A model generated the notes under the pieces. That model was not told the origin of the DNA. It did no database searches and was given only the letters and a program-made list of their open reading frames with translations. The translations under genes and the position numbers were made by a program. A stretch of 64,000 nucleotides of DNA from Daejeonella oryzae DSM 19973 (GTDB taxonomy: Bacteria; Bacteroidota; Bacteroidia; Sphingobacteriales; Sphingobacteriaceae): NCBI RefSeq assembly GCF_000422945.1, contig NZ_AUHA01000003.1, forward strand, positions 186,001 through 250,000. Reading direction: 5' to 3'. Positions 7,029-55,579 of the stretch are shown here, piece after piece (positions within the stretch are counted from its first letter, which is position 1; every line of letters starts with the position of its first letter).

Positions 7029-8200
7029 TCATTCCGTCATCATCAGTTTAAAATTCTCAATCTGTTTTGAAGTTGCTAAGCGAAGAAAATACATTCCGGC
7101 AGAAAGCTGTGATCCGTCGAATTCAAATTTCAAGGTTTGATTTGCCTCGGCCCGGCCCTCATACATTCGTTTCACCCGGGATCCTTTCAAATCATAAACA
7201 TCGAGAATAACCAGATTTTCATCTGCCGGTAATGTAAATGTGACCATGGCATTTTTGCCAAACGGATTGGGATAGGCGCTAAGCAGGATTTTGGAAGATT
7301 TTACAGTAATTGTAAATGTTTGGGCCGGACTCTGATTTATACCCCCAAATTCAGTTCCTCCGTTATCTTTTAAAATCACGTTTAGGGTAGCCGAACCGCA
7401 TGCATTGATAGCGGGAGTGAAGCTCAATGTTCCATCAGGAGATATGGTGGGTTGAGCAGAGAATAAATTTTTATTCGTATTGGAAACGGTAAAGTGTACT
7501 GCCTGCGTTTCTTCTCCCGGATCACCTTTGGAAATATGAGTAGCCCATAAAGGAACCACCTGCGGACCTGCATTTTCATACAGGATCTGATCCGGTCCTT
7601 TGGTAAATGCAGGAGCTGAATTAACTTCATTCACGGTGATCCGGATTTCTTCTGATACGGTACAGCTGCCATCTGAAACCACAATTTTAACGTGATAGAT
7701 TCCGGGTCCCTGATCTTCTGATGGAGTCCAGGTAAACTGTCCCCCGGATGGATGGATCACGGCTCCGGTCGGGAAGTGACTCTGAGATGTTTTTGCCAAA
7801 GAATAAGTCAGGATATTGGCTGGCAGGTCACTATCTGTAGCAGCGGCTGTAAAAGAGAGTTCAAAACCTTCGTTCACCGTTTTATTTCCAATAGCCAACA
7901 GAACCGGTTCCGCATTAATTTCACAAACCTGGATCTCGATTTCTTCCTCATCAATACAAGTTCCATCCGAAACCTTAATTTTAACCCGATATGTTCCCGG
8001 ACCCTGTGCTTCGGTGGGTGTCCATGTAAATAAACCGGTAGATTTATTGATTGTTGCTCCTTCCGGGAATTGTCCCGTAGTAGCATTAGCCAGTGAGAAT
8101 TTAAGCTCGTCAGGTGCTGAATCTTTATCGATAGCTTTTACAATGAAGTTGAGTTTTTTCAGTTCGTTAATGGATTTATTGCCTATAGCTGCAAGAACCG
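7029..8200 (-). repeat. Near-identical 3' gene segment, copy 2
   Basis: Partner of 3390-4556. It covers the last Ig-like modules and the T9SS domain; the DNA conservation is higher than in the repeat blocks upstream. Confidence 0.85.
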
Positions 8201-29771: not shown

Positions 29772-29830
29772 TAACTAATTAAATAATATTAACCGGATCT
29801 TTAAAAGGATAATTCTTTTTATCATAAAAG

Positions 29831-29844
29831 GTGATTCACGTCAT
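29831..29844 (+). promoter_or_regulatory. Weak FNR-like site before the ferredoxin gene
   Basis: gtgattcacgtcat: the core TGAT-N4-GTCA has one mismatch to TGAT-N4-ATCA. Its center is about 59 bases before the start. It may put the ferredoxin under the Crp/Fnr regulator encoded at 43621-44688, but a single mismatched box can arise by chance. Confidence 0.3.
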
Positions 29845-29895
29845 TTTTATATGGTTTGATATTTAGCTTCTTTGTCATAAATAGTTTTTGCTTTT

Positions 29896-30231
29896 ATGAT
29901 CAGTTTTCAGGTAGAAGATCTCAATAATCAAATCGACAATATTGAATTTCCTGAGGAAGTCAGTTTAAGTTTGATGGAAGTTTTAAGGGCATGGAATTAT
30001 CCTATTCCAGCAATTTGCGGAGGTAAAGGCTTGTGCGCTACCTGTCATGTAATAGTTAAAAATGGATTACACCAGTTACAGGAACCCACCGAAAGAGAAC
30101 TGGATTTATTAGATATTCTACCCGATGCAACTTATAGAAGCCGTTTAGCTTGCCAGATACGAATAAGCAATCTTATTGAAGGATGTTTATTCCACCTGCA
30201 GGCAAATAAAAAATCCTACAGTCCATGTTAG
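29896..30231 (+). CDS. [2Fe-2S] ferredoxin, plant/adrenodoxin fold
   Basis: 111 residues, cytoplasmic. Cluster ligands C41, C47, C50 in 'AICGGKGLCATCH' and C86 in 'RLACQI'; spacing C-x5-C-x2-C ... C is the normal [2Fe-2S] pattern. Electron donor role; partner not identifiable. Single gene between the arsenic region and the oxidase island, with a weak FNR-like site upstream. Confidence 0.9.
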   Translation: MISFQVEDLNNQIDNIEFPEEVSLSLMEVLRAWNYPIPAICGGKGLCATCHVIVKNGLHQLQEPTERELDLLDILPDATYRSRLACQIRISNLIEGCLFHLQANKKSYSPC

Positions 30232-31654: not shown

Positions 31655-33034
31655 TTACAAGTTAGGAGGCGCTATGAAAGTTGTTTTGGCAGTGCTGATT
31701 ACCTTGCCTTTAGATAAAATATTCAGAGTGATGCCCGATTTATATTTATTAACACGCTTTTGCGGAAGAATGATAAAAAAAGTAAGCTTAACTGTGCCTC
31801 CCTTTTCTACTTTTTCAGCTTTGTTTATATACTGAATAGTGGCCTGCGGATCGGAAACCCTGATCTCAAACTGCATGTCTTCAGGAGTTTTATTAATCAG
31901 TTCGGCATTATAGAGGTTGCTGACTGTACCGTTTTCTCTAAGCTGATAAAGTGTTCCGGAAGCACGAAGAATTGTTGCACTGATATCAGACCTCTGGATT
32001 AATAAGGTGCTGAGTGTGCTAATCAGGATAACTAATATAATACTGTATGCATAAATCCGCTTGCTGAATTTAAATGGTTTTCCTTCAGCAATATGTTCTT
32101 CAGATTTAAAGCCGATTAAACGGGTAGGCCGATGGGTTTTTTCCATAACCATATCGCATGCATCAATGCAAAGCGTGCAATTGATACATTCAAGCTGTGT
32201 TCCCTTCCGGATATCAATCCCGGTAGGACAAACCTGTACGCAAAGGCCGCAATCAACACAATCTCCTTTTGGGGATTCATCTGATTTGCTGATATGCCCT
32301 CTTGGTTCACCTCTTAAATAATCGTAAGCTACAACAAGTGTTTTTCTATCTAGTAAAACACCTTGCAGCCGTCCGTAAGGACAGATAACGGTACAAACCA
32401 ATTCCCTTACTTTTGCGAAAACGAGGTAAAATACAGCGGTGAAAATGCAGATTGCCAGAAAACCATAAATATGCTGATTTACAGGATCTTTTATTATTTG
32501 AAGTAAAGCATCAGACCCGATGGTGTAAGCCAGAAAGATGTTTGCTATAAAAAACGAAATCACAATAAAAATGAAGTGTTTCAATCCCTTTTTGAATATT
32601 TTGTCAGGATTTAGGGGAGAAGCATCCAGCTTTTTTTGCTGTTGGGCATCTCCTTCAATCCAGTATTCAATTTTGCGGAAAACCATTTCCATGAAAATGG
32701 TTTGGGGACAAGCCCAGCCACACCAAAGTCGGCCGAATATGGCAGTAAATAATATAATGAAAACAATAAAAGTTAGAATCGCTAAGGCAAAGAGGTAAAA
32801 ATCCTGAGGCATAAATACGACTCCGAAAAGCACAAATTTTCTTTCCAGGATATTTAAAAGGATTAGCTGCTCGCCGTTTATCTTTAAAAAAGGGCCCGTA
32901 AAAAGTAATGCAAGAAGAAAATAACTTACTATGTTACGATACTGGTAAAGCTTTCCTTTGATGAGTTTCGGGTAAATCCAAACCCTTCCGTTTCTGCTTG
33001 TATCCGTGATTTTTTTCTTATTAACTTCTGACAT
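31655..33034 (-). CDS. ccoG: CcoG, cbb3 oxidase accessory ferredoxin (Cu reduction)
   Basis: 459 residues. N-terminal membrane segments with 'RLWCGWACPQTIFMEMVF' (C-G-W-A-C-P-Q), a pair of [4Fe-4S] sites 'CVDCGLCVQVCPTGIDI' and 'CINCTLCIDACD', and a C-terminal Ig-like periplasmic domain. CcoG reduces Cu(II) for insertion into the oxidase. Positioned right after ccoP with 73 bases between, followed by fixH. Normal length. Confidence 0.96.
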   Translation of the reverse strand: MSEVNKKKITDTSRNGRVWIYPKLIKGKLYQYRNIVSYFLLALLFTGPFLKINGEQLILLNILERKFVLFGVVFMPQDFYLFALAILTFIVFIILFTAIFGRLWCGWACPQTIFMEMVFRKIEYWIEGDAQQQKKLDASPLNPDKIFKKGLKHFIFIVISFFIANIFLAYTIGSDALLQIIKDPVNQHIYGFLAICIFTAVFYLVFAKVRELVCTVICPYGRLQGVLLDRKTLVVAYDYLRGEPRGHISKSDESPKGDCVDCGLCVQVCPTGIDIRKGTQLECINCTLCIDACDMVMEKTHRPTRLIGFKSEEHIAEGKPFKFSKRIYAYSIILVILISTLSTLLIQRSDISATILRASGTLYQLRENGTVSNLYNAELINKTPEDMQFEIRVSDPQATIQYINKAEKVEKGGTVKLTFFIILPQKRVNKYKSGITLNILSKGKVISTAKTTFIAPPNL

Positions 33035-33107: not shown

Positions 33108-33995
33108 TTATCCTTCCTTATCGCCCTGGGGGGCTTTTCCACTTGGCGGATTGCTTCCCTTAATCGAAAGAATGTAGTTGCTTACTTCCGAAATTTGTTT
33201 CGCAGTAAGGATTTTTTCCCAGGAGATCATGCCTTTTTCGGGTACACCATATTTAATTGTTTTAAACACGCTGTTTACTTTTCCGCCATGAAGCCAGAAT
33301 TGATCTGTTAAATTAGGTCCAACTGTTCCCTGACCCTTATCTCCATGACAGGCCACGCAATTGGCTGTGTAAACGGCCTGCCCGGCAGCAATTATTTTAG
33401 GATCTTTATTTTCTTTAACTGAATTTTCGTCAATGTTATTAGCAGATTTAGAAAGGAATGCAGTTTGCTCAATTTTCGCCTGTTTCATTTCAATAGCATA
33501 CTCTTCATCCTGTAAAGGACCCCAGTTAAATACATGAAAATACAAGAGGTATACAAAAGCCCAGCCGATACTGCCATAAAAAAGCCACATAAACCATGCA
33601 GGTATAGGATTGTCAAGCTCGGTAATGCCGTCGAATTCGTGTTCCATCATTAAATCTTTCTCTTCCTCTATAGGTTTGAGACCCAATATTTTGATCCAAA
33701 TACTTGGTCTTGATTTTTTGATGGCTTCGTATTCTTCATAAGTTAATAAAGGAACAGAAACAGGTGCTGCAAACGGAACCGGATTGCTCAGTTCGTTAAC
33801 AATTACTTTATAAGCTTTCAGGATAGCAAATGAGGCCAGCAATACCAATAGGGAAGTGATGATCAGAACCGCTATCAATAGATGCTGATGTGTATTTCCT
33901 GGACTAACAGCTTGAGTAATTTCTGCAGGTTGTTCCTGTGCGAAAGCCCCGCCTGCCGGCAGAAGCACTGATAAAATGTATAACAGCCTTTTCAT
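33108..33995 (-). CDS. ccoP: CcoP, mono-heme c-type subunit of cbb3 oxidase
   Basis: 295 residues. Signal/anchor segment (1-20), second anchor at about 38-60, a third hydrophobic segment at about 133-153, and one c-type heme site C213-V-A-C-H217, with a distal Met near 'EKGMISWEK'. Proteobacterial CcoP has two hemes; the single-heme form is what I see here and is common in Bacteroidetes. It carries electrons to CcoNO. Its ATG overlaps the ccoQ stop. Confidence 0.95.
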   Translation of the reverse strand: MKRLLYILSVLLPAGGAFAQEQPAEITQAVSPGNTHQHLLIAVLIITSLLVLLASFAILKAYKVIVNELSNPVPFAAPVSVPLLTYEEYEAIKKSRPSIWIKILGLKPIEEEKDLMMEHEFDGITELDNPIPAWFMWLFYGSIGWAFVYLLYFHVFNWGPLQDEEYAIEMKQAKIEQTAFLSKSANNIDENSVKENKDPKIIAAGQAVYTANCVACHGDKGQGTVGPNLTDQFWLHGGKVNSVFKTIKYGVPEKGMISWEKILTAKQISEVSNYILSIKGSNPPSGKAPQGDKEG

Positions 33996-34198: not shown

Positions 34199-36322
34199 CT
34201 AATTCTTATTGCTTACTTTGATATCGGTTCCCAGACGCTGCAGATAGGCAATAATTGCAATAATTTCACGGTCGCTTTTTACTTTAATATCATTTTGGGA
34301 CAAGTTCTCGCTAATTTTCTGAGCCTGCATATTCAGATCTTTATTGGCCAGTTTTTCGAAACCTTCGTCATACGGAACACCAAGCGTTCTCATGGCATTA
34401 ATTTTCGATTCTGTAGTTGTAATATCCAGTTTCTGCTCAATTAACCAGGGGTAGGGTGGCATAATACTTCCCGGTGACATGGTTGTAGGATCCATCATGT
34501 GATTAAAATGCCATGCGTTTGAATATTTTCCGCCCTGGCGATGAAGATCAGGACCGGTACGTTTTGATCCCCACAGAAATGGATGATCATACACAAATTC
34601 CCCGGCTTTACTATACTCACCATAGCGCTCTGTTTCTGATCTGAAAGGGCGCACAGTTTGAGAATGGCAGTTTACGCAACCCTCACGGATATAAATATCC
34701 CGGCCCTGCAATTCAAGCGGAGAATAAGGCTTTACGCTGGAAATGGTGGGAACATTTGATGAAATAATAAACGTAGGCATCATTTCAACCATACCTCCAA
34801 TCAGGATAACGATGATTGACAATACCATAAACGCCATAGGCTTGCGCTCCAAACTGCGATGCCAGGTTTTTTCACTGCTATGCGGAGTAAACGCAGGCAT
34901 TAATGCCATGGCTTCTGCAGGTTCATTTGACAGTAGTTTTCCCTTGGCAACTGTTTTAAGAAGATTGTAAGTCATTACAATTACCCCCACTAAATACAAT
35001 GCTCCGCCAATTGCACGAAACATGTGCATAGGAAGTAGTATTAAAGTTGTTTGAAGAAATGCAGGATACTTTAATGTGCCTTCCGGAGTAAATTCTTTAA
35101 GCATTAATCCCTGTGCAAAACCAGATAAATACATAGGTATTGCATAAAACAGAATTCCCAGTGTTCCAATCCAGAAGTGGAAAGAAGTTAATTTCTTTGA
35201 AAAAATCTCCGTTTGATAAATGCGTGGAATCAGCCAGTAAAGAATTGCAAAGGTGAGGAATCCATTCCAGCCTAAGGCTCCAACGTGTACGTGAGCAACA
35301 ATCCAGTCTGTAAAATGAGCAATTCCATTGATTTGTTTAAGAGACAGCATAGGCCCCTCAAAAGTGGCCATTCCGTAAGACGTTAGACCAACCACCATGA
35401 ATTTCAGAATGGCATCATCTCTTACTTTATCCCAGGCTCCGCGTAAGGTTAATAAACCGTTGATCATACCTCCCCAGCTTGGAGCAATCAGCATGAGCGA
35501 AAAAGCAACGCCAAGTGATTGGGCCCATCCAGGTAAGGATGTGTATAATAAGTGGTGAGGGCCGGCCCATATGTAAATAAATATAAGTGACCAGAAATGC
35601 AGAATACTTAATTTATAAGAATAAACCGGTCGGTTTGCCATTTTAGGAAGGAAATAATACATCATCCCTAAATAGGGAGTTGTAAGAAAAAATGCTACTG
35701 CATTGTGTCCGTACCACCACTGTACCAGTGCATCCTGAACGCCGGAATATAAATAGTAACTTTTAAATGCTGAAATTGGCAGCTGCGCTGAGTTAACAAT
35801 ATGAAGAACAGCAATAGTAACAAATGTGGCAATGTAAAACCAGATGGCTACATACATATGCCGCTCACGTCTTTTAATGATTGTACCGAACATATTTACA
35901 CCAAATACAACCCATATTACTGTGATAGCTATATCTATCGGCCATTCCAGTTCGGCGTATTCATGCGAAGTTGTAAATCCAAGCGGTAATGAAATTGCGG
36001 CTGAAACTATAATAAGCTGCCAGCCCCAGAAATGGATCTTGCTAAGCAAATCACTAAACATTCTTGCTTTAAGCAGACGCTGAAGTGAATAATACACGCC
36101 CATAAATATTCCGTTGCCTACAAATGCAAAAATTACTGCATTTGTATGCAGCGGTCTGATACGGCCGAAAGAGCTGTATTGATTTCCCATATTCATTGCA
36201 GGTTCAAATAGTTGGAAGGCAATGAGTAAGCCTACGGTCATACCAATGAGGCCCCATACTACGGTGGCTATTGCAAAGTTCCTAACGATCTTGTTGTCGT
36301 AATTAAATTTTTCAAGCTGCAT
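34199..36322 (-). CDS. ccoNO: Fused CcoN-CcoO subunit of cbb3-type cytochrome c oxidase
   Basis: 707 residues. The first about 480 residues are the heme-copper catalytic subunit (many helices, His-rich stretches such as 'VQWWYGHNAVAFFL', 'AGPHHLLYTSLP' and 'DWIVAHVHVGALGWNG'). The C-terminal about 200 residues are a membrane-anchored cytochrome c with 'IREGCVNCHSQT' (CcoO). Fusion of N and O is typical of Bacteroidetes. It reduces O2 to water at low O2 and pumps protons. Heads the operon with ccoQ, ccoP, ccoG, fixH. FNR-type site and a perfect palindrome lie upstream. Confidence 0.97.
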   Translation of the reverse strand: MQLEKFNYDNKIVRNFAIATVVWGLIGMTVGLLIAFQLFEPAMNMGNQYSSFGRIRPLHTNAVIFAFVGNGIFMGVYYSLQRLLKARMFSDLLSKIHFWGWQLIIVSAAISLPLGFTTSHEYAELEWPIDIAITVIWVVFGVNMFGTIIKRRERHMYVAIWFYIATFVTIAVLHIVNSAQLPISAFKSYYLYSGVQDALVQWWYGHNAVAFFLTTPYLGMMYYFLPKMANRPVYSYKLSILHFWSLIFIYIWAGPHHLLYTSLPGWAQSLGVAFSLMLIAPSWGGMINGLLTLRGAWDKVRDDAILKFMVVGLTSYGMATFEGPMLSLKQINGIAHFTDWIVAHVHVGALGWNGFLTFAILYWLIPRIYQTEIFSKKLTSFHFWIGTLGILFYAIPMYLSGFAQGLMLKEFTPEGTLKYPAFLQTTLILLPMHMFRAIGGALYLVGVIVMTYNLLKTVAKGKLLSNEPAEAMALMPAFTPHSSEKTWHRSLERKPMAFMVLSIIVILIGGMVEMMPTFIISSNVPTISSVKPYSPLELQGRDIYIREGCVNCHSQTVRPFRSETERYGEYSKAGEFVYDHPFLWGSKRTGPDLHRQGGKYSNAWHFNHMMDPTTMSPGSIMPPYPWLIEQKLDITTTESKINAMRTLGVPYDEGFEKLANKDLNMQAQKISENLSQNDIKVKSDREIIAIIAYLQRLGTDIKVSNKN

Positions 36323-36364
36323 AATCAGATTTAATCGTATTGTTTTCAGATTGTAAAATTACCG

Positions 36365-36383: not shown

Positions 36384-36405
36384 GTGATAAAAGTTTTTCA
36401 AAAAA

Positions 36406-36419
36406 TTGATCTTCATCAC
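36406..36419 (-). promoter_or_regulatory. FNR-type box upstream of ccoNO
   Basis: ttgatcttcatcac: TTGAT-N4-ATCA(C), 9 of 10 consensus positions of TTGAT-N4-ATCAA. Center about 90 bases before the ccoNO start. Likely target of the receiver-Crp/Fnr regulator at 43621-44688. Confidence 0.75.
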
Positions 36420-36460
36420 TTTTTTGAGAATCGTCACTGGATATTAAATGAGCATGCTGC

Positions 36461-36696: not shown

Positions 36697-39114
36697 TCAG
36701 ACTTTAAAAACCTGTTCAACAGGTGAATTTAATCTGTTTTTGCCGGCGAAATACCGTGCACTTACCGATGTGAAAATAATAATGGTAATGGTGCTTAATG
36801 GCATTAAAACAGCCGCAGTAAGCGGGGATAAAATTCCCTGAACAGCAAAATAAATTCCGACAAGATTATAGGATGCTGAAATTACCAGGCTCATGTGTAT
36901 CGTTTTGACAGCATCGGTTGCCTGAGTCATAAAACGGGATAAACTCATCATCGAACTTCCGTCGAGAATTGCGTCACAACCGGGATTGAAATTGTTTATG
37001 TTATCCGTTACCGCTACGCCTAAATTGCTTTGTTTTAATGCGCCGGCATCATTCAACCCATCGCCAAGCATCATTACTTTATGACCTTCCGACTGCAAAT
37101 TTTTTATATAATCCAGTTTGTTTTGCGGACTCTGTGCAAAGTGCATTTGTTCCGGAACCGGAAAAAAATGCGATAAATTCTCCCGCTCACTTTCATTATC
37201 TCCCGACAGTAAATGTAAATCGGCATGCTGTGAAAGCGTTTGTAAGAGTTGGTTCAGCCCGGACCTCCATTGCTGTTTGATTTTAAAACAACCTTTGTAA
37301 ATTCCATTGATATCCAGCTGTACCTGTGCAGAATCAATCTGACTAAGTTTTCCCGAAGAAACAAATGTGGATTTGCCCAACTTTAACTGCCGGCCATTAA
37401 CAGTTCCGCAAATACCTTTTCCCGCAATTTCGGTAAAATTCATAACCTCCCGGAAGGTGTTTACATCAAGCCATTTCACTATTTCCCTGCTCAGGGGATG
37501 ACTTGAATTTCTGGCAAGGGAAGCCACTAATATTTTTTCCTCAGCAGATAAATCTCCGGAGAAAGAAAGATGGATCAGATCTGCCGAAGTAATGGTGCCG
37601 GTTTTATCAAAAACGATGGTGTCAATTTTTGCAAGCTGCTCAACTACATCGGTATTTTTCAAATAAAAACGGTTTTTATCAAAGATGCTTAAAACCGCAG
37701 AAAGCGTAAAAGGTGTACTTAAAGCCAGCACACATGGGCAGGCAACAATTAAAACTGCGGTAAATGAACTCCACGCTTTGCTGCTATCTGAAGAATAGAT
37801 CCAGAAACCAGCAGCGCTGAAAGCGATGATAAAAGTTGCCAGACTGAAGTATTTGGCAATCATATCATTAAAATTCTGGAGCTTATTATCAGTAATTTTA
37901 AAGGTTTCGTTATTCCATAATCCCGTTAGGTAGCTTTGTGAAACAGGTTTTATTACTTCCAGTTCAATAGCTTCACCTATCTGACGACCGCCGGCGTAAA
38001 GCATTTCTCCTAATACTTTCCTAAGCGGCGCCGATTCTCCGGTAACGAAACTAAAATCCACATATGCTTCTCCTCTCATTAAGATCGCATCTGCGGGAAT
38101 AATCTCATTATTTCGGATAAGAATGCGGTCTCCGATACTTAATTCCTCAATTGCAACAGGTTTTTCCATTTCCTTTTTTAGTACAGTTACCGCTACCGGG
38201 AAATAAGAACGGTAATCTCTGTCGAAAGAAAGGTGATGATAGGTGCGCTGCTTCACCCAACGGCCCATTAACAGCAGAAAAATTAATCCCGTTAGCGTAT
38301 CTGTAAATCCCGGTCCGGTTGAGCTGATGATTTCAAATGCCGACCTGAGAAACAAAACGGCTATAATTAATGCCAGGGGTGCATCCAAATTGATTATTTT
38401 ATGTTTTAATCCCGCCCAGGCGGAGCTGAAAAATATGCGTCCGCAGTAAAAGGTAACAGGAATTGCAAAGGCAAGATTAAGCCATCCGAATAAGGATTTA
38501 AATTGCTGATCGAATGAAGAGAGCCCGAAATATTCGGGAAAGCTTAAAAGCATTACGTTTCCCATACAGAAACCGGCTACTGCAATTTTTTTGATCAGAT
38601 CGCGGTTATCTGTGTTTTGTTTATCCTTAACAACATCCTGTAAACTGATAAGGGGCTCATATCCCAAAGAAACTAAGAGTTCTACAAGCTTTCTCAAAGA
38701 AAATTGCTGCTGTTTAAATGTTATGGATACCTGCTTTTTTAAAAAATCTATGCGGGAGTTTACCACTGCAGCATTTAACTTATGTAAATGTTCCAGTAGC
38801 CAGATGCAGGAACTGCAGTGTATGGCGGGTATGTAAAATGTAACAGTAGTTATGTTTTCATCGCTGTAATCAATCAGCCTGGTAATTATTCCGGATTCAT
38901 CCAGGTATTCAAAATGCTTTGATTCTGAATGTTGAGTTTGTCCCGGAGAATCATTATAACTGTAATAACTGCAAAGATTATTTGAATTTAATACCTGATA
39001 AACACTCTGGCAGCCAATACAGCAGAAATTTTTTTCATCCAGTATATAACCTGTACTCGTTATTGCGGTTCCGCAATGGTAGCATTGGTTATCTGTTAAG
39101 GTATATGTAGCCAT
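36697..39114 (-). CDS. ccoI: CcoI/FixI copper-transporting P1B-type ATPase
   Basis: 805 residues. N-terminal Cys-rich segment (C11-x2-C14, C31-C32-x2-C35), HMA-like metal domain with C100-S-S-C103, membrane helices, phosphatase loop T358-G-E, translocation motif C459-P-C461, phosphorylation D503-K-T-G-T and 'GDGLNDAGAL'. CcoI exports/loads copper for cbb3 oxidase assembly. 75 bases upstream of ccoS in transcription order; its own FNR box is at 39186-39199. Confidence 0.96.
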   Translation of the reverse strand: MATYTLTDNQCYHCGTAITSTGYILDEKNFCCIGCQSVYQVLNSNNLCSYYSYNDSPGQTQHSESKHFEYLDESGIITRLIDYSDENITTVTFYIPAIHCSSCIWLLEHLHKLNAAVVNSRIDFLKKQVSITFKQQQFSLRKLVELLVSLGYEPLISLQDVVKDKQNTDNRDLIKKIAVAGFCMGNVMLLSFPEYFGLSSFDQQFKSLFGWLNLAFAIPVTFYCGRIFFSSAWAGLKHKIINLDAPLALIIAVLFLRSAFEIISSTGPGFTDTLTGLIFLLLMGRWVKQRTYHHLSFDRDYRSYFPVAVTVLKKEMEKPVAIEELSIGDRILIRNNEIIPADAILMRGEAYVDFSFVTGESAPLRKVLGEMLYAGGRQIGEAIELEVIKPVSQSYLTGLWNNETFKITDNKLQNFNDMIAKYFSLATFIIAFSAAGFWIYSSDSSKAWSSFTAVLIVACPCVLALSTPFTLSAVLSIFDKNRFYLKNTDVVEQLAKIDTIVFDKTGTITSADLIHLSFSGDLSAEEKILVASLARNSSHPLSREIVKWLDVNTFREVMNFTEIAGKGICGTVNGRQLKLGKSTFVSSGKLSQIDSAQVQLDINGIYKGCFKIKQQWRSGLNQLLQTLSQHADLHLLSGDNESERENLSHFFPVPEQMHFAQSPQNKLDYIKNLQSEGHKVMMLGDGLNDAGALKQSNLGVAVTDNINNFNPGCDAILDGSSMMSLSRFMTQATDAVKTIHMSLVISASYNLVGIYFAVQGILSPLTAAVLMPLSTITIIIFTSVSARYFAGKNRLNSPVEQVFKV

Positions 39115-39185
39115 TCAACTTTATTATAAAAAACAAAGGTGTTGTAAGATAGTGCAATCTGAAATGATAATTCTTATTGCTATTA

Positions 39186-39199
39186 ATGATTTAGATCAC
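39186..39199 (-). promoter_or_regulatory. FNR-type box upstream of ccoI
   Basis: atgatttagatcac: perfect TGAT-N4-ATCA core, about 72 bases before the ccoI start, in a 127-base gap. Same arrangement as upstream of ccoNO. Confidence 0.72.
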
Positions 39200-39241
39200 A
39201 TTCAAAAACCCAAATTTGATATCTGCACTACTCATATTTAA

Positions 39242-41157: not shown

Positions 41158-42510
41158 CTAAACGGAAGTACTGAATATCTGACTTTCAGGCTGCTTTTCC
41201 CATAGCCTTTCATCAAATGCCATGCATATGTTTCTTAAAAAAGCTTGTCCGGCAATTGTTACCTGTAAGCGATTATCTTCCAGATGAATAAGCCGATCTT
41301 TTTGAAGGGAACTTAAACGAACTAAAATATCCAGTAACTGAGGATCTTCTAAATCTAACTCAGCAAATCCTCTGCACATAATATGCAAAATGATTTTGCG
41401 GTATTTGAGATCGTTTGAGGTGAGAATGTGACCTTTAAAGAGGGGTAATTTACCATCAGAAATTAGATTTAAATAGGAATCTAGCTGCTTTACATTCTGT
41501 GCAAAACCGTACCAGCTATCACTAATGGAAGAAACGCCAAGTCCGATGGAAAGCTGTGTGTATTGATGGGTGTATCCCATGAAATTACGGTGGAGTGTTT
41601 GGTTTTTAGCGGCTGTGTATAAGCTGTCGGTTTTCAGCGCAAAGTGATCCATGCCGATATCAGCATAACCTGCTTCTTTCAACAGACTTAGCCCTTTTTC
41701 GTATAAGGCTCTTTTCTCATCGGCGGCGGGTAAATCGTTTTCAGTAAAGCGGCGCTGTCCTGGTTTTAGCCAGGGAACATGCGCATAGCTGTAAAACGAA
41801 ATGCGATCGGGCATCAACTTTATCACTTCTCGGATTGTATTTTCTACACTTGATAATTGCTGTAAAGGCAATCCGTAGATAAGATCGTAATTGATGGATG
41901 TATAACCCAGGTTTCGGGCCTGTGAAGTAACCTGCTGAACCTGTTCAACAGATTGTTTTCTGTTAATTATCTCCTGAACTTTGGGATCAAAATCCTGTAT
42001 TCCCAAACTCAATCTTCTGAAGCCCAGATTATATAGCGTTACTAAATGTTCCAATGTTGTATTTGCAGGATGCGCTTCAAATGAAAACTCTGCATCTGCT
42101 GTAACTTCTGCCTCATTTAAAATCCCCAATGTTAATTTTTCGAGATTATTGGGATTGAAGAAAGTTGGAGTTCCGCCTCCCAGATGAATTTCCCGGATAA
42201 GCGGTTTGCATTTTAATACCTCGCAATACATTTTCCACTCTTTAATAACCGCAATCAGATAAGGATCTTCAACCGTATGATTTTTGGTGATACGGGTATT
42301 GCAGCCGCAATACGTACAAAGACTTTCACAAAATGGCAGATGAATATATAAACTGATGCCCTCTGAACCGCCCTCGCGGTAGGATCTCTTTACTGAGATA
42401 AGCCATTCCTCCTCAGTCCATGCTTCTGTTTCCCAATAGGGAACTGTAGGATAACTGGTATATCTGGGAGCTGCTACATTGTATTTTTTGATCAGTTCAG
42501 AAGTGGTCAT
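41158..42510 (-). CDS. hemN: Oxygen-independent coproporphyrinogen III dehydrogenase (radical SAM)
   Basis: 450 residues, normal length. 'IHLPFCESLCTYCGCNTRI' contains the radical SAM C-x3-C-x2-C with the extra C typical of HemN, 'EIHLGGGTPTFFNPN' and 'FEAHPANTT' follow, and C-terminal 'MGYTHQYTQLSIGLGVSSIS'. It makes protoporphyrinogen IX without O2, supplying heme for the oxidase at low oxygen. Placed next to ccoI and the FixL-like regulators, 34 bases after ldhA. Confidence 0.96.
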   Translation of the reverse strand: MTTSELIKKYNVAAPRYTSYPTVPYWETEAWTEEEWLISVKRSYREGGSEGISLYIHLPFCESLCTYCGCNTRITKNHTVEDPYLIAVIKEWKMYCEVLKCKPLIREIHLGGGTPTFFNPNNLEKLTLGILNEAEVTADAEFSFEAHPANTTLEHLVTLYNLGFRRLSLGIQDFDPKVQEIINRKQSVEQVQQVTSQARNLGYTSINYDLIYGLPLQQLSSVENTIREVIKLMPDRISFYSYAHVPWLKPGQRRFTENDLPAADEKRALYEKGLSLLKEAGYADIGMDHFALKTDSLYTAAKNQTLHRNFMGYTHQYTQLSIGLGVSSISDSWYGFAQNVKQLDSYLNLISDGKLPLFKGHILTSNDLKYRKIILHIMCRGFAELDLEDPQLLDILVRLSSLQKDRLIHLEDNRLQVTIAGQAFLRNICMAFDERLWEKQPESQIFSTSV

Positions 42511-42544: not shown

Positions 42545-43537
42545 TTAAGCAGAAGCCAGCATTTCTGTGTTTTTATCTTCTTTCCAGTTATCCAGGTTTT
42601 CGATAGTTTTTTCTGCAATTACCTGCAGGGCTTCTTTAGTCAGAAAAGCCTGGTGAGGAGTGATCAGTACCCTTGAATTTTGTATAAATGCTTTAAGCAT
42701 CAGGTCTGAGATGGGTTTGTGGCTATGATCAAAAAAGAAATATTCATGTTCAAATTCATAAACATCCATCCCGATCTTACTGATCTTATCATTTTGAAGT
42801 GCAGTAAGTACGTCTTCAGAATTAAAAAGTGCTCCGCGACTTACATTGATCAGCATGACTCCATCTTTCATTTTAGAGATAGATTCTGAATTAATCATAT
42901 GCCTGGTTTGATCATTGAGCGGAAGATGGAGTGAAATGATATCAGACTGGCTGAGTAATTCATTGTAAGAAACCTGCTCTGCACCTAACTCATCACATTG
43001 TTGTTTTACGTCCTGCGGTTCAAACACAATAACTCTTGAACCAAATCCCCGAAGTATGCGGGCCAGCGAACGACCTGATTCTCCGCACCCGATAATACCT
43101 ATGGTTTTATTGCCTATGGTTGTGCCAACCAGATTATCGAGAGAGAAATCATATTCCAGCATCTGCTGATGTGCAGGAATAATATTACGGGAAAGGGAAA
43201 GTATTAATGTAATTGCATGTTCTGCGATAGATTGAGGAGAGTAAGCCGGGATATTTGCAACCTTAATTCCCAGTCGACTGGCTTCTGCAAGGTCTATATT
43301 ATCAGTTCCGGTAGATCTGATTGAAATATATTTTACGCCCAGTTCTTTGAGTTTTTGAATAACTGGAGCTGACAGATCGTCGCTGGAAAATACTATTACC
43401 GCATCTTTTCCAGCCGAATAAGAAGCTGTGTCAATTGTTAACCTGTTAGATATAAGCGTTATATCGTGCTTTTTCTTATTAGCCTTAATAAGAATTTCTT
43501 TCTCACACGTCTTAATGCTATATGCTACCGCCTTCAT
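42545..43537 (-). CDS. ldhA: D-2-hydroxyacid dehydrogenase, probably D-lactate dehydrogenase
   Basis: 330 residues. NAD-binding 'TIGIIGCGESGRSLARIL' and the catalytic set: R ('VMLINVSRGALFNSE'), E ('MDVYEFEHEYF') and H ('ITPHQAFLTKEA'). The 'IRSTGTDNIDLAEAS' stretch is the usual one for D-lactate dehydrogenases. It reduces pyruvate to D-lactate with NADH. 34 bases before hemN; a weak FNR-like site lies upstream. Substrate specificity is inferred from the family and context. Confidence 0.9.
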   Translation of the reverse strand: MKAVAYSIKTCEKEILIKANKKKHDITLISNRLTIDTASYSAGKDAVIVFSSDDLSAPVIQKLKELGVKYISIRSTGTDNIDLAEASRLGIKVANIPAYSPQSIAEHAITLILSLSRNIIPAHQQMLEYDFSLDNLVGTTIGNKTIGIIGCGESGRSLARILRGFGSRVIVFEPQDVKQQCDELGAEQVSYNELLSQSDIISLHLPLNDQTRHMINSESISKMKDGVMLINVSRGALFNSEDVLTALQNDKISKIGMDVYEFEHEYFFFDHSHKPISDLMLKAFIQNSRVLITPHQAFLTKEALQVIAEKTIENLDNWKEDKNTEMLASA

Positions 43538-43584
43538 GTAATCAATATTTACATCAAAATTAAGCGGATGCAGATACTATAGCC

Positions 43585-43598
43585 ATGAGGCTAATCAA
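43585..43598 (-). promoter_or_regulatory. Weak FNR-like site before ldhA
   Basis: atgaggctaatcaa: TGAG-N4-ATCA, one mismatch in the core. Located about 55 bases upstream of ldhA and just after the regulator gene. Supportive but not strong on its own. Confidence 0.4.
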
Positions 43599-43620
43599 GT
43601 GAAAAAATGACCTTCGTTAC

Positions 43621-44688
43621 TTATTGTTTTACGTTTTTAAGCTTGCTTAATGATAGAATTTTAATTTTGCTGCCTTCTTTTTCTATCAGGTGCTCATCTT
43701 TAAAATCAGCAAGAGTTCGGCTTATTGTTTCATTTGCCGTGCCAACCATGGCGGCCAGATCATCGCGTGAAACTTTAATTATCCGGAGATCAGAATTGGG
43801 CTCACCAAATTTTTCTGCCAAACTCACCAGTGCATCTGCTACACGTTTCCGAACGGAGTTATAGGCTAACTTTAATAGTTGATCCTGTTTTTCCTGAACA
43901 CTGCCGGATAGCAGCTGAATAAATTTTTTGGATATTCCGGGATTCTTAAAAAGCAAATTGTTGAATTCATCGCGGGAAATTAAATATAGTTCTGAGGCTT
44001 CCAGAGTTTCTGCGTTTTCTGCTCCGGGTTTATTAAGTAAAACAGAATCGTATCCAAAAAACTCGCCCAGCGAAAAAATACCCGTTGATATTTCGCGGCC
44101 ATCTTTGTATATCATGTAAGTTCTGATGCTTCCGCTTTTAACCATGTATACACTAGAGGGATGATCGCCATCCATATAAACACTTTGCTTCTTTTTATAG
44201 CTGCGGATGCGGCTGTTTTCGGAGAGTTCATTTAACAATTTTGCAGATCGAGCTTCGTTTAGCAAGCCGTCAAGTGAAGCAGAATTGCCTGCATTCTTTT
44301 TAATCTGCGCTCTTTTCTGTAACCTGGTTTCAATGGCATTTAAAAGCTCCATATCGTCAAAAGGTTTGGTCAGGTAATCATCAGCACCCATTTCCATTCC
44401 TTTCCGAAAATCTGTTCTTTCTGCCTTTGCAGTTAGAAATATGAAAGGAATATCTGATGTCTGAGGATTCTTGTTCACCAGGTAAAGCACGCCGTAACCA
44501 TCAAGCTCGGGCATCATAATGTCACAGAGAATAATATCCGGAAGGTGAATTTGAGCCAGTTCTACACCTTTTTTACCATTTTCTGCGGTATAAACCTTGT
44601 AGTCTGCAAGATCAAGTATTTCGGCAGTACTTTCGCGGATATCCTGGTTATCTTCAATTAATAAAACGGTTTTAGTGGGAGCTTTCAT
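43621..44688 (-). CDS. Response regulator fused to Crp/Fnr-type DNA-binding protein
   Basis: 355 residues. Receiver domain 1-125 with E12-D13, phosphoacceptor D56 ('IILCDIMMP'), T86 and K108; linker; cyclic-nucleotide-binding fold about 155-265 ('GSIRTYMIYKDGREI'); helix-turn-helix about 285-355 with the Fnr-type recognition motif E320-T-I-S-R324. The N-terminal cysteines of oxygen-sensing FNR are absent (only C55, in the receiver), so O2 signalling would come from the kinase. Stop/start overlap of 4 bases with the kinase gene. Predicted activator of the TGAT-N4-ATCA boxes in this island. A receiver directly joined to the effector is unlike the separate FixJ and FixK of rhizobia. Confidence 0.93.
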   Translation of the reverse strand: MKAPTKTVLLIEDNQDIRESTAEILDLADYKVYTAENGKKGVELAQIHLPDIILCDIMMPELDGYGVLYLVNKNPQTSDIPFIFLTAKAERTDFRKGMEMGADDYLTKPFDDMELLNAIETRLQKRAQIKKNAGNSASLDGLLNEARSAKLLNELSENSRIRSYKKKQSVYMDGDHPSSVYMVKSGSIRTYMIYKDGREISTGIFSLGEFFGYDSVLLNKPGAENAETLEASELYLISRDEFNNLLFKNPGISKKFIQLLSGSVQEKQDQLLKLAYNSVRKRVADALVSLAEKFGEPNSDLRIIKVSRDDLAAMVGTANETISRTLADFKDEHLIEKEGSKIKILSLSKLKNVKQ

Positions 44689-45869
44689 TGTTTAAACATT
44701 AAAGTAATTGTGGTTCCGCGATTTTGGGCACTTTTATAAATAACTTCTCCGCCCATTAATTCAGCGTATCTCTTAACTATGTTTAAGCCCAATCCGGTTC
44801 CGGGAATATTGCCGGTATTATTTGCTCTGAAAAACGGCTCAAACAAATATTTTTGCTCTTCCTGAGGAATACCGATTCCATTATCCTTTACCATAATGCA
44901 TAGTTCAGTTTCTGTTAGCTCTGTATTAAACTCTATAAAAGTATTTTCACCCGAATATTTTATTGCATTTGATACCAGATTAATAACCGAATTTTTCAGA
45001 AGAGCCGGATCAAGATTAACTTTGCTCGAAACGCCCGTATGCTGGTAAACAATATTTTGGTTTTGCTTGGCTAATAATTGCATTTCTTCAATCAAATCTT
45101 CAGAGAATTTTACAATATCAAATTGCTGGAATTCTGCTTCAGTTTTACCGGCTTCCAGTTTTTCCAGCGATAGGAAATCATTTAAAATGCCCGTAAGATG
45201 GCCTACCGAAGTTTTAATTTTGCCGGTATGTTTATGGATATTTTCAAAATCAGGCTTTTGTGCATATTTGTCAATTAGAGAGGCAGAGAGCTGCACCGAA
45301 CTGAGAGGCGTTCTGAATTCATGCGAAGCCATGGAAACAAACCTGGTTTTTAACTGGTTCAGTTCCTTTTCTTTTTCCAAAGATATACTTACATCTTCTT
45401 TGGCTTTTTCAAGCTCATTAACCAGCGTTTGTAAAACCTGGGTGCGTTCCAGGATGCGTTGTTCTAATTCTTCGGTATATTTTTTAAGGTTGTATTCAGC
45501 CGCTTTTTCTTTTGAAAGATCATGAACAAAACCGGTGTAAATTCTCCTGTTTTCATATTTCACTTCTCCCACAGCAAGCCTGAAAGGAAAAGTTGATCCA
45601 TCTTTCCTTAATCCTAAAACTTCTCTTCCGATACCAATTATTTTTCTTTCTCCCGTGGTTTGATGATGATGAAGATAGCCGTTGTGTGCACTTTTATAAG
45701 GCTCAGGCATTAATACCGAAACATTACTACCTGTTATTTCTTTTTCCTGATATCCAAAAAGACTTAATGCAGCCGGGTTGATGGATTCAATTATTCCCCG
45801 CTCATCAATAGTTATAATTCCATCAATTGCCGAATTGATAATTGCGTATAAGAGTTTTGCTTCTTCCAT
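44685..45869 (-). CDS. FixL-like PAS sensor histidine kinase
   Basis: 394 residues. PAS domain about 8-120 with the FixL pattern: H62-N-G-Y, I77-I-G-I-G-R82 and 'GLRKDGSTFPFRLAVGE'. By alignment from memory with Bradyrhizobium FixL, H62 equals the heme ligand H200, I77 equals I215 and R82 equals R220, while R206 is H68 and H214 is K76. After a coiled-coil (about 125-170) comes HisKA with H183 ('SMASHEFRTPLS') and HATPase (N301, D329-N-G-I-G, G357-T-G-L-G). No membrane segment, so cytoplasmic. Predicted to sense O2 or NO through heme; many PAS domains share this pattern without heme, so this needs test. Confidence 0.9.
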   Translation of the reverse strand: MEEAKLLYAIINSAIDGIITIDERGIIESINPAALSLFGYQEKEITGSNVSVLMPEPYKSAHNGYLHHHQTTGERKIIGIGREVLGLRKDGSTFPFRLAVGEVKYENRRIYTGFVHDLSKEKAAEYNLKKYTEELEQRILERTQVLQTLVNELEKAKEDVSISLEKEKELNQLKTRFVSMASHEFRTPLSSVQLSASLIDKYAQKPDFENIHKHTGKIKTSVGHLTGILNDFLSLEKLEAGKTEAEFQQFDIVKFSEDLIEEMQLLAKQNQNIVYQHTGVSSKVNLDPALLKNSVINLVSNAIKYSGENTFIEFNTELTETELCIMVKDNGIGIPQEEQKYLFEPFFRANNTGNIPGTGLGLNIVKRYAELMGGEVIYKSAQNRGTTITLMFKQ

Positions 45870-45962
45870 TTAGAGGGTAAAGTACAAACATAATAGAATT
45901 CTTTGCAGAAATATTATTGAATGGTGTTCGTGAACTGTAAGCCCTGATGAAATATTTTGAAA

Positions 45963-47174
45963 TTAATTCTTAAATTCCTTATTTAAAAGGTCAACACATT
46001 GATTTGCAATTTCAAGTTCTTCGTTGGTAGGAATGATGAGAATTTTTGTCCTTGCACCCTCTAAACTTACATCCCTCAAAGAACCCGATCTTACAGAATT
46101 TTTTTCAATGTCCAGGTTAATGCCGAAAAATTCCATTTCCTCGCATATTAACTCTCTGATGAGAATATCATTTTCGCCAACTCCGGCAGTAAAAACAATA
46201 GCGTCAATCCCGTTTAATGCGGCTGCATAAGATCCAATGTATTTTTTAATCCTGTAGGCATACATTTCATAGGCCAGAAGAGATTTCTCATCCCCATTTT
46301 TAATAGAAGATGTAATATCCCGCATATCACTGTTTCCGGTAAGGCCAATCATTCCGCTATGCTTGTTAAGCAGGGTGTTTACTTCCTGTATATCCAGCCC
46401 AAGTTGAGAAACCATATGGAAAATTACAGATGCGTCAATATTTCCGCATCGTGTACCCATAATTAAACCATCCAGGGGCGTAAGTCCCATGCTGGTATCC
46501 ATGCATTGTCCACCGTTTACGGCGGCCATGCTGCATCCATTTCCCAAATGGATGGTAATAATTTTAGCCTGCGGTTGATTCAGGTATTTTCTGGCCTGTT
46601 CATCTACATATTTGTGGCTTGTTCCGTGAAATCCATAAACACGAATTCCATGGTTTGTATAGTACGAATTTGGAATAGCATAGCGAAATGCTTTTTCGGG
46701 CATACTCTGATGAAAAGCAGTATCAAAAACAGCCACCTGTGTAGCATTTGTAAATATCTTTTCTGTTACCCCGATTCCTAAATAATTGCCCGGATTATGA
46801 AGAGGGGCCAGTTGGAAAAGGTTTTTGATTTCTTTTTTTACTTCCGGAGTTATAACAGCCGTTTTAGAAAATTTTTCGCCCCCATGTACCACACGATGGC
46901 CAACAATTTCTATTTCTCCCGGATTTTGAATCACGCCAATACCGGGTTCTGTGAGTAATCTTCCAACCTCCAGAATTCCGGCTTCGTGGTCTTTCAGATC
47001 TAAAGTAAGACTGATTACTTTTTCATTTCCCTTAGTATAAATTTTATGGGTAATTACCGAATCCTTTAAGCCGATTCGTTCAATCAGCCCGTTACAGATT
47101 GGCGCCTCTGAAGGCATTTTAAAAAGCTGGTATTTAATAGAACTGCTGCCCGAATTAATTACTAGTATGTTCAT
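45963..47174 (-). CDS. ackA: Acetate kinase
   Basis: 403 residues. 'ILVINSGSSSIKYQLF' (N-terminal phosphate loop), 'VVHGGEKFSKTAVI', 'VAVFDTAFHQSMP' (catalytic D), 'GFHGTSHKYV', 'TIHLGNGCSMAAVNGG' and 'VFTAGVGENDI'. It converts acetyl phosphate and ADP to acetate and ATP. It overlaps the pta stop by 20 bases, so the pair is translated together. With ldhA it provides fermentative ATP and NADH balance at low oxygen. Confidence 0.97.
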   Translation of the reverse strand: MNILVINSGSSSIKYQLFKMPSEAPICNGLIERIGLKDSVITHKIYTKGNEKVISLTLDLKDHEAGILEVGRLLTEPGIGVIQNPGEIEIVGHRVVHGGEKFSKTAVITPEVKKEIKNLFQLAPLHNPGNYLGIGVTEKIFTNATQVAVFDTAFHQSMPEKAFRYAIPNSYYTNHGIRVYGFHGTSHKYVDEQARKYLNQPQAKIITIHLGNGCSMAAVNGGQCMDTSMGLTPLDGLIMGTRCGNIDASVIFHMVSQLGLDIQEVNTLLNKHSGMIGLTGNSDMRDITSSIKNGDEKSLLAYEMYAYRIKKYIGSYAAALNGIDAIVFTAGVGENDILIRELICEEMEFFGINLDIEKNSVRSGSLRDVSLEGARTKILIIPTNEELEIANQCVDLLNKEFKN

Positions 47175-54274: not shown

Positions 54275-55579
54275 ATGATTGAAAAATTAATTTCATTTTC
54301 ATTACGAAACAGGTTCCTCATCCTGCTAATTGCATGCGGAATATTTACCTGGGGGGTGTATTCGGTAAACACCTCTAAAATTGATGCAATACCAGACCTG
54401 TCAGAAAATCAGGTAATTGTATTTACCGAATGGATGGGACGAAGTCCGCAGATTATTGAGGATCAGGTCACATATCCCCTGGTAACTAATCTGCAGGGAA
54501 TCCCGAAAGTTAAATATGTGCGGGCAAATTCCATGTTTGGGATGAGTTTTATATATATAATTTTTGAGGATAATGTAGATGTCTACTGGGCCCGTTCTCG
54601 GGTTCTTGAGCGTCTGAATTCCCTTGGAAATACTTTGCCCGAAGGTGTAAATCCCAATATGGGACCCGACGGAACAGGAGTGGGACATGTATTGTGGTAT
54701 ACTCTTGATGCAAAAGGCATGGACCTTGGCGAGCAGCGTGCGGTGCAGGATTGGTATATTAAATTTGCCCTGCAGAATGTTCAGGGAGTGAGTGAAATTG
54801 CCTCTTTTGGAGGTTTCCAGAAACAATATCAGATCAACATCGATCCCAATAAACTCACCTATTATAAGCTGACGCTGAACGATATTATGCGTTCAGTAAA
54901 ATCCAATAATAACGAAGCCGGCGGACGGAAGTTTGAGATGAGTAATATGGGGTATATTATTAAAACCACCGGCTATCTTAAATCCATACGGGAAATTGAA
55001 AACCTGGCTGTGCGTACTCAAAATTCTATTCCTGTTAAAATCCGCGATGTAGCAACCGTGCAAATGGCGGGAGAAAGCAGGCTTGGCATATTTGATTATA
55101 ATGGAGAGGGCGAGGCCGTTGGTGGCATTGTGGTTTTGCGTTACGGTGAAAACGCTGATGAAGTTATCAAGAGCGTTAAAGCAAAAATGATTGAAGTGGG
55201 AAAAGGTCTTCCCGAAGGAATGAGCTTTAATATTGTTTATGATCGTGGTAAACTGATTGAAGAATCCATATCATCCATAAAGACAACACTTTTTGAAGAA
55301 ATGATTGTGGTTTCGCTAATTGTTATCATTTTTCTTTTTCACTGGAGAAGTGCTGTCAGCATCATAATCCAGATTCCGATTACTATTGCGGCCAGTTTCA
55401 TTATTCTCAATGCTTTTGATATTACATCCAATATTATGTCATTAACGGGTATAGCACTTGCCATTGGGGTGATTGTTGACAACGGAATAATCATGGCAGA
55501 AAATGCGTACAAGCATCTTTCCATCCGCCAGGCGGAACTAAATGAATTAAGAAAGGGGGAAATAACAAATGCAGAGTAA
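54275..55579 (+). CDS. cusA: CusA-type RND efflux permease, N-terminal part of split gene
   Basis: 434 residues: helix 1, the first periplasmic lobe ('IPDLSENQVIVFTEW', 'NNNEAGGRKFE'), then helices 2-4 with proton-relay D ('AIGVIVDNGIIMAENAYKH'). It ends in the cytoplasmic loop after helix 4. The next frame, shifted by one base and overlapping by 11 bases, continues the same protein. Heavy-metal RND pumps are normally a single chain of about 1,040 residues, so this is a split gene, either a frameshift or two coupled subunits. Confidence 0.9.
   Translation: MIEKLISFSLRNRFLILLIACGIFTWGVYSVNTSKIDAIPDLSENQVIVFTEWMGRSPQIIEDQVTYPLVTNLQGIPKVKYVRANSMFGMSFIYIIFEDNVDVYWARSRVLERLNSLGNTLPEGVNPNMGPDGTGVGHVLWYTLDAKGMDLGEQRAVQDWYIKFALQNVQGVSEIASFGGFQKQYQINIDPNKLTYYKLTLNDIMRSVKSNNNEAGGRKFEMSNMGYIIKTTGYLKSIREIENLAVRTQNSIPVKIRDVATVQMAGESRLGIFDYNGEGEAVGGIVVLRYGENADEVIKSVKAKMIEVGKGLPEGMSFNIVYDRGKLIEESISSIKTTLFEEMIVVSLIVIIFLFHWRSAVSIIIQIPITIAASFIILNAFDITSNIMSLTGIALAIGVIVDNGIIMAENAYKHLSIRQAELNELRKGEITNAE

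Follow-up and report, generated by a model that had tools for sequence, protein, structure and literature searches.

The window analysed here, a stretch of 64,000 nucleotides from the 3.4 Mb genome of the soil-type Bacteroidota bacterium Daejeonella oryzae DSM 19973 (contig NZ_AUHA01000003.1, positions 186,001 to 250,000), carries two coupled genes coding for a FixL-like PAS histidine kinase and a receiver fused to a Crp/Fnr-type regulator, which probably constitute an oxygen-responsive two-component system with an FNR-type activator as its output. In the proposed scheme, the PAS domain would bind heme via H62, the departure of oxygen would promote kinase autophosphorylation at H183, and the phosphoryl group would then be passed to D56 of the receiver. 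The phosphorylated regulator, rather than another Crp protein, would occupy a tandem of TGA-N6-TCA palindromes 22 bp apart as two dimers lying side by side, a strong site nucleating binding and helping, by receiver-mediated cooperativity, to occupy a weak one that covers the -33 region. The bound tandem would have its centres at about -62 and -40 in promoters marked by a TAnnTTTG -7 box, thereby activating ccoNO, ccoI, the 2-hydroxyacid dehydrogenase-hemN genes and others. What the DNA shows directly is the domain make-up and key residues, the coupling of the genes, the operators with their spacing and constant distance from the -7 box, and conservation. The pair is a variant of two known kinds of control, FixL-type signalling and FNR-type activation, and the operator and promoter grammar that accompanies it is a new finding, and an unexpectedly rigid one.

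Results

The kinase and its PAS domain

The stop codon of the kinase gene overlaps the start codon of the regulator gene by 4 nt (ATGA, both on the minus strand), and in 108 of the 110 fetched loci the regulator gene had a kinase directly upstream, two of these kinases (L016, L025) being fragments within the fetched stretch. Both open reading frames (ORFs) lay where an earlier note on this DNA had put them, and Pfam agreed with its description, assigning PAS, HisKA and HATPase_c to the kinase and Response_reg, cNMP_binding and HTH_Crp_2 to the regulator, each above curated cut-offs. According to the residue preceding the recognition Arg of the regulator, the loci were divided into a Ser class (84 of 110, with the window's own motif) and a sister Ile class (24), one further locus having Thr and one (L091) being unread. 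Five duplicates (L031, L033, L034, L074, L097) were retained in these class counts and in those of kinase coupling and neighbouring genes, and dropped from all operator, tandem, -7 box, pocket and ldhA counts.

The top PDB match of the kinase was 1d06 (E 6.5e-31), which we take to be S. meliloti FixL, and its PAS domain aligned without gaps, at a numbering offset of +138, to 1dp6, presumably B. japonicum FixL, the residue numbering of which is assumed throughout. The heme positions previously read in this domain were borne out by the alignment, in which H62, I77 and R82 corresponded to H200, I215 and R220, with L98 and V100 as the counterparts of L236 and I238; so too were two reported deviations, H68 replacing R206 and K76 replacing H214. 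These differences look tolerable because 1d06 has Arg at the 214 position and Ser-class kinases (n = 78) themselves vary, with R in 34, N in 36, H in 3 and others in 5 at residue 68, and K in 31, H in 27, R in 14 and others in 6 at residue 76. The remainder of the pocket was retained almost without exception in the same class (H62, R82 and L98 each 78/78; I77 and V100 77/78; Y65 76/78). Among 22 aligned Ile-class kinases, a few of which have another make-up and align poorly, H62 was present in 18, R82 in 6 and I77 in none. Since the Ser-class kinases keep the FixL pocket and those of the Ile class mostly do not, predicted heme binding is well founded for the Ser class only, the window included.

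The domain thus combines an alignable PAS fold, the proximal heme His and a counterpart of R220, as members of the FixL heme-PAS group do. The whole protein scored 162.7 bits against the NCBIfam FixL equivalog NF041777.1, for which the cut-off is 850; judged by its sequence, the kinase is FixL-like in its PAS domain without being a FixL equivalog. Its catalytic residues were invariant across 50 aligned sequences, and its structure model matched histidine kinase structures, adding little to what the sequence already indicated. The kinase alignment and the 52-row receiver alignment were hand-chosen from 90 and 99 candidates, respectively, plus the window.

The receiver-Crp/Fnr regulator

Receiver residues E12, D13, D56, T86 and K108 were invariant in all 52 aligned sequences, thereby providing the acidic pair, phospho-Asp, Thr/Ser and Lys that, together with the adjacent kinase, define a two-component response regulator. 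The C-terminal part belongs to the Crp/Fnr superfamily (PF00027, 63.6 bits; PF13545, 60.3 bits), so that, as claimed earlier, the partner is a receiver joined in one chain to an Fnr-type protein with the recognition motif E-T-I-S-R, and not a regulator of the FixJ/NarL type. FNR binds its iron-sulfur cluster through four cysteines, three N-terminal and one central. An N-terminal C-x2-C was sought in the sequence of the window regulator and was not found, and comparison by eye placed Leu-Tyr where the short FNRs of relatives have Val/Ile-Cys; the four ligand cysteines are absent, which upholds the prior description of the protein as devoid of the FNR ligand set. The model of the regulator (predicted local distance difference test, pLDDT, 88.6; predicted template modelling score, pTM, 0.47) comprised receiver, linker helices at residues 112-136 and 139-157 and Crp body, and matched Crp and FNR structures.

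In a tree of 72 Crp parts, which drew on 28 hand-chosen Ser-class rows of 79 and in which two plain Crp rows occupied very long branches, the Ser class formed a single group (support 97/92). A single branch (98/79, not starred) separated fusions from short FNRs with the exception of one long-branch row; the root was set at the midpoint, from which the direction of any swap between the two is not readable.

Operators, tandem spacing and the -7 box

Regions upstream of orthologues were used only for matches that extended to the start of the gene and spanned 35% of its length, a filter passed by 34/35 loci for ccoNO, 29/30 for orf39242, 51/57 for ccoI, 54/66 for hemN, 96/103 for the kinase and 19/71 for ldhA; the remaining 52 ldhA-position loci, with short genes, were counted as a separate set. 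Of the 34 ccoNO loci, 32 had the palindrome TGA-N6-TCA ahead of this gene (3.0 expected from 20 shuffles), control spacers of N4, N5, N7 and N8 yielding 0-2; it was also present before orf39242 in 28 of 29 (2.2 expected from 20 shuffles). It preceded ldhA-like genes in 57 of 71 loci against about 6 expected (long genes 18/19, expected 1.95; short genes 39/52, expected 4.15), the kinase in 27 of 96 (5.9) and ccoI in 9 of 51 (3.9). Upstream of hemN (5/54 loci, 4.5 expected) and ccoG (0/32, 1.7 expected) it remained at background; genes without a site of their own may be read from upstream promoters. The pooled consensus was AAAgTGA-N6-TCAcTTT. The short ldhA-position genes (52 of 71 de-duplicated neighbours) have some 120-160 codons and match only the first hundred or so residues of ldhA; the two that were read (L109 and L036) end in a Cys-containing tail.

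Alignment of the ccoNO, orf39242 and ldhA promoters revealed a common layout in which a strong distal site is followed 22 bp downstream by a weaker TRA-N6-TCA and, at a fixed place, by TAnnTTTG, which we take to be the Bacteroidota -7 box. Within 1.53 Mb of loci, 83 palindrome pairs were exactly 22 bp apart, every other distance from 9 to 43 bp giving 0-2 pairs, and six pairs lay at 44 bp. In the 70 bases following 194 tandem occurrences (counted per strand) there were 97 such boxes, of which 87 began exactly 23 nt past the second site; other gaps averaged 0.15. Relative to this predicted box the site centres would fall near -62 and -40, which fits an activator. The full composite promoter of tandem and box preceded 15 of 19 long and 18 of 52 short ldhA-like genes, with 0.0 expected in each set.

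A strict FNR box (TTGA-N6-TCAA, one mismatch) was tried and gave no signal in the window (51 matches, 60.7 expected). TGA-N6-TCA itself occurred 32 times there against 21.2 expected, a clear signal arising only upstream of orthologues, and scans of positions 43480-46000 for sigma-70 promoters and terminators returned background levels. Restriction of the 22-bp tandem to genomes with the receiver fusion was considered and ruled out: the tandem also occurs in genomes with a cysteine FNR alone, and receivers are therefore not required for the layout.

Distribution among relatives

The kinase/receiver-Crp pair is a widespread family within its class. A full-length fusion match (E <= 1e-60) was present in 32 of 198 genomes sampled evenly over the phylum, all 32 being listed in the window's class or closer, and in 37 of 60 relatives on our reading of the matches. 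A scan of one genome per species returned at least 587 stretches encoding some relative, fusions only in part, of which the best 80 were kept; among the matches listed, the closest regulators in named species came from Daejeonella, Desertivirga and one Adhaeribacter. In Adhaeribacter rhizoryzae (L032), a 29 kb contig, acquired by transfer or itself foreign, codes for a regulator 72% identical to that of the window, whereas those listed from Pedobacter are more distant. Probably by contamination, a Bacteroidota-type receiver-Crp locus also turned up in a metagenome bin assigned to Bifidobacterium breve (L090). Neighbours detected by tblastn in the 110 loci were ldhA-like genes (76), hemN (71), ccoI (59), ccoNO (38), ccoG (34), orf39242 (33) and, rarely, ackA (4) and pta (2), all of these counts being lower bounds because L001-L030 have short flanks.

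Across the 60 relatives the 22-bp pattern was recorded 187 times in 37 fusion genomes, 14 times in 8 genomes with a cysteine FNR only and 9 times in 15 with neither, compared with 26, 2 and 7 for a 23-bp control. The corresponding counts of the composite promoter were 177 (in 33 of the 37 genomes), 11 (4/8) and 2 (2/15), and the reversed composite pattern matched once in all 60 genomes. A ccoN gene was present in 33 of the 60. Among these, 26 of the 27 with the fusion had a site within 500 bp of ccoN, as did all four cysteine-FNR-only genomes examined (G027 left out; no shuffled control). One or other regulator was found in 32 of 33 genomes with ccoN versus 13 of 27 without (Fisher p 1.3e-5), and the fusion alone in 27/33 versus 10/27 (p 5e-4); these p values are indicative only, since genomes share ancestry.

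Of the six ccoN genomes without the fusion, five had a short cysteine-bearing FNR, as detected at a threshold (E <= 1e-38) that could miss diverged FNRs. Those of G023, G029 and G038 have C-x2-C-x8-C plus a central Cys, presumably like the FNR ligand set; that of G040 is encoded elsewhere than at ccoI, that of G027 lies on a 3.2 kb contig, and the sixth genome, G057, has a cysteine-free Crp by ccoI. All four cysteine positions were occupied in short regulators of G023, G027, G029, G038 and others, and a partial set was seen in G040, G046 and G059. Within the window's family, 21 ccoN genomes were divided between fusion (18) and cysteine FNR (3), with none having both or neither; outside it, 12 comprised 7 with the fusion, 2 with a cysteine FNR, 2 with both and 1 with neither. 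Strict mutual exclusion of the two sensor kinds, considered as a rule, thus holds in the window's family and fails outside it. Before ccoN of cysteine-FNR-only genomes, tandem sites were present in G038 and G040 and single sites in G023 and G029. This pattern suggests a sensor swap on one regulon.

Sites and candidate targets in the window

Window sites were ranked by a weight matrix built from relatives' sites, the window's own being excluded. The highest score was that before ccoNO (19.1), followed by those before a ferredoxin gene (17.3) and ccoI (15.5). The four best tandems belonged to ccoI, ccoNO, ldhA and the ferredoxin gene, the partner site scoring below zero for ccoNO and the ferredoxin gene; four tandems scored 14 or more, compared with 0.15 per shuffle. 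Allowing one mismatch, the composite pattern was present before ccoI and ldhA. Relevant features are collected in Table 1.

Table 1. Features of the kinase and regulator genes, predicted operators and candidate targets (window positions).
Feature	Position	Strand	Basis or remark
FixL-like PAS histidine kinase, 394 residues	44685..45869	-	ORF, Pfam, PDB match, locus coupling
PAS domain, residues 7-117	45519..45851	-	ungapped match to FixL heme PAS
H62 codon, counterpart of FixL proximal heme ligand H200	45684..45686	-	alignment, class conservation
Receiver-Crp/Fnr fusion regulator, 355 residues	43621..44688	-	ORF, Pfam, alignment, model
Receiver domain, residues 8-120	44329..44667	-	Pfam, alignment
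cNMP-binding fold, residues 162-249, without FNR-type cysteines	43942..44205	-	Pfam, sequence reading
Crp-type helix-turn-helix, residues 281-352	43633..43848	-	Pfam
Recognition motif E-T-I-S-R	43717..43731	-	sequence
Predicted ldhA tandem operator	43582..43623	-	distal 43604-43623, overlapping regulator stop codon; weaker proximal 43582-43601; 22 bp apart
TAATTTTG, predicted ldhA -7 box at fixed offset	43555..43562	-	
Predicted ccoI tandem operator	39161..39202	-	strong 39183-39202, weak 39161-39180
CACCTTTG, ccoI -7-box-like element at fixed offset	39134..39141	-	one mismatch
Predicted strong ccoNO operator	36403..36422	-	top score in 64 kb; partner 22 bp downstream unrecognisable
TAATTTTA, ccoNO -7-box-like element at fixed offset	36354..36361	-	
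Predicted single operator, second-best in window	29828..29847	+	48 nt before ferredoxin gene; without -7 box at fixed offset
2Fe-2S ferredoxin, possible target	29896..30231	+	
ccoG	31655..33034	-	above NCBIfam cut-off
ccoP-like, same direction as ccoNO	33108..33995	-	NCBIfam match below cut-off
ccoNO, fused cbb3 oxidase subunits I/II, predicted target	34199..36322	-	above NCBIfam cut-off
ccoS/FixS, 53 residues	36461..36622	-	passes Pfam
P-type ATPase, ccoI by position, predicted target	36697..39114	-	NCBIfam
orf39242, 600 residues	39242..41044	-	without strong operator before it in window
hemN, oxygen-independent coproporphyrinogen III oxidase	41158..42510	-	above NCBIfam cut-off; without operator of its own
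D-2-hydroxyacid dehydrogenase (ldhA-like), predicted target	42545..43537	-	passes Pfam

The ccoI candidate scored below the NCBIfam cut-offs of copper-ATPase models and above that of a general P-type ATPase model. The product of orf39242, a gene conserved beside cco genes, matched nothing in Pfam or NCBIfam at the thresholds applied. Elsewhere in the window, a CusA-type resistance-nodulation-division pump (named by eye) is distributed over two overlapping ORFs in different frames (54275-55579 and 55569-57518), by a split gene or a frameshift, and two giant, repeat-rich, secreted-looking neighbours (3390-6779 and 7029-11765) have nearly the same C-terminal parts.

In the rest of the genome the composite pattern was recorded five times: before DUF892, baeRF, a neighbouring opposite-direction ORF, Hsp20 and a plain Crp near a nosZ-like gene. 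At L153 (contig C5:35000-46000), a second kinase, with two PAS domains and another pocket type, and a second receiver-Crp gene adjoin that plain Crp and the nosZ-like gene (nos_propeller match). Several 22-bp tandem operators lie in one gene island at L170-L171 (contig C2:342000-370000), the genes of which, identified mostly by eye, are UspA-, phosphoenolpyruvate-synthase-, FtsH- and HtrA-like, BON-domain, and alcohol- and pyruvate-dehydrogenase-like; perhaps this island is an anaerobic survival regulon.

Discussion

A number of observations weigh against the proposed oxygen-responsive activator. At the kinase end, the His at the R206 position is replaced by Arg in the nearest relatives (L002-L005), and the confidence of the kinase model is middling (pLDDT 77.8). 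In the window, the distal ldhA site ranked only seventh (11.9), ranks four to six lie inside genes, 12 single sites scored 10 or more against 6.4 by chance, and the proximal ccoNO site is unrecognisable. The earlier note had supposed that the pair controls the genes around it: that part is supported for ccoNO, ccoI and ldhA, each preceded by a predicted operator; before hemN, ackA and pta (the last two named by eye from ORFs) and before the kinase, a strong operator was sought in the window with none seen. Among relatives, fusion genome G022 lacks any site in the 500 bp on either side of its ccoN gene, and a cysteine FNR by ccoI (named by eye) was present in only three of the six ccoN genomes without the fusion (G023, G029, G038). 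Finally, one point in favour, that the base before TGA varies with the recognition residue (G at 0.42 across 51 Ser loci and at 0.08 across 12 Ile loci; p 6e-5), comes from a comparison that is not independent, because it sets essentially one clade against others.

Other explanations can be put forward. The PAS fold is versatile, the positions of R206 and H214 hold other residues than in 1dp6, and the loci of the sister class, whose kinases have another pocket (R220 counterpart 6/22, I215 counterpart 0/22), also have tandem operators, so that the output does not dictate the input. It is nevertheless unlikely that the regulator and operators are correctly read and the PAS senses something other than oxygen via heme, be it redox state, another ligand or NO/CO at heme, given that the other compared pocket positions are kept in the whole Ser class and that the system is predicted to act on oxidase and fermentation genes. 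Somewhat less likely again is the prospect of another Crp/Fnr protein binding the operators, with the receiver-Crp protein controlling something else. The genome does code for three other HTH_Crp_2 proteins, a second receiver-Crp and two plain Crp proteins, of which the former and the plain Crp near nosZ carry E-x-x-I-R and could read similar sites; moreover, cysteine-type FNRs accompany the same tandem layout in genomes where they are the sole such regulator. Against this, operators lie beside the fusion genes themselves, with a full composite promoter no more than 250 nt past the end of the regulator gene at 25 of the 78 loci of the Ser class and 9 of the 24 of the Ile class, and composites are concentrated in genomes having the fusion or a cysteine FNR. 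Repression of the targets in place of activation seems very improbable: the site centres have been placed only relative to a predicted -7 box and not to a mapped transcription start, but -62 and -40 are classical activator positions for Crp/Fnr proteins, and repression would not call for a single exact spacing from the -7 box.

An oxygen-responsive kinase acting on an FNR-type activator would resemble the FixL-FixJ-FixK cascade of rhizobia in its FixL-type PAS kinase, in having cbb3 oxidase genes among its targets and, as in FixK, in an FNR-type final activator without iron-sulfur cysteines. It differs in that receiver and FNR-type protein form one chain, which would do away with one transcription step, and in its operator, gTGA-N6-TCAc, often as a 22-bp tandem. 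The contraction of that cascade to two proteins, as proposed in the earlier note, draws support from the conserved pocket, the near-universal coupling of the genes and the conserved operators. For comparison, a study on R. leguminosarum has hFixL signal via FxkR, which induces fixK transcription, and FixK act at a TTGAT-N4-ATCAA anaerobox (PMC7888657).

With respect to FNR, the window regulator has in common the Crp/Fnr fold, the E-x-x-S-R motif, a related half site and oxidase targets; it lacks the FNR-type cysteine set, and the signal would enter via receiver phosphorylation. Some relatives have a short cysteine-bearing FNR, either instead of the fusion or in addition to it. Receiver-Crp response regulators with Response_reg, cNMP_binding and HTH_Crp in one chain are reportedly listed in response-regulator censuses. 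In searches of the open literature, from which subscription papers are mostly absent and for which some result lists comprised top entries only, no functional study of such regulators was found, nor any report from the Bacteroidota in which a FixL-type kinase acts on a receiver-Crp protein. In genomes of Flavobacteriales and Saprospiraceae, Crp/Fnr proteins are placed near MalR (PMC8510549).

A broader view can be advanced only tentatively: within one bacterial class, one low-oxygen regulon with one 22/23-nt grammar might be served by two interchangeable oxygen switches, an iron-sulfur FNR and a FixL-like kinase acting on an FNR-type protein, swapped at the cco locus, with phosphorylated receivers replacing the iron-sulfur cluster as the device that pairs Crp dimers.

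The pair described here is a possible route by which members of the Bacteroidota control their high-affinity oxidase. It illustrates how the fusion of domains could reduce a cascade of three proteins to two, and how the sensor of a regulon could be exchanged with its promoters kept. The exact 22 and 23 nt layout can serve to predict low-oxygen regulons throughout the class.

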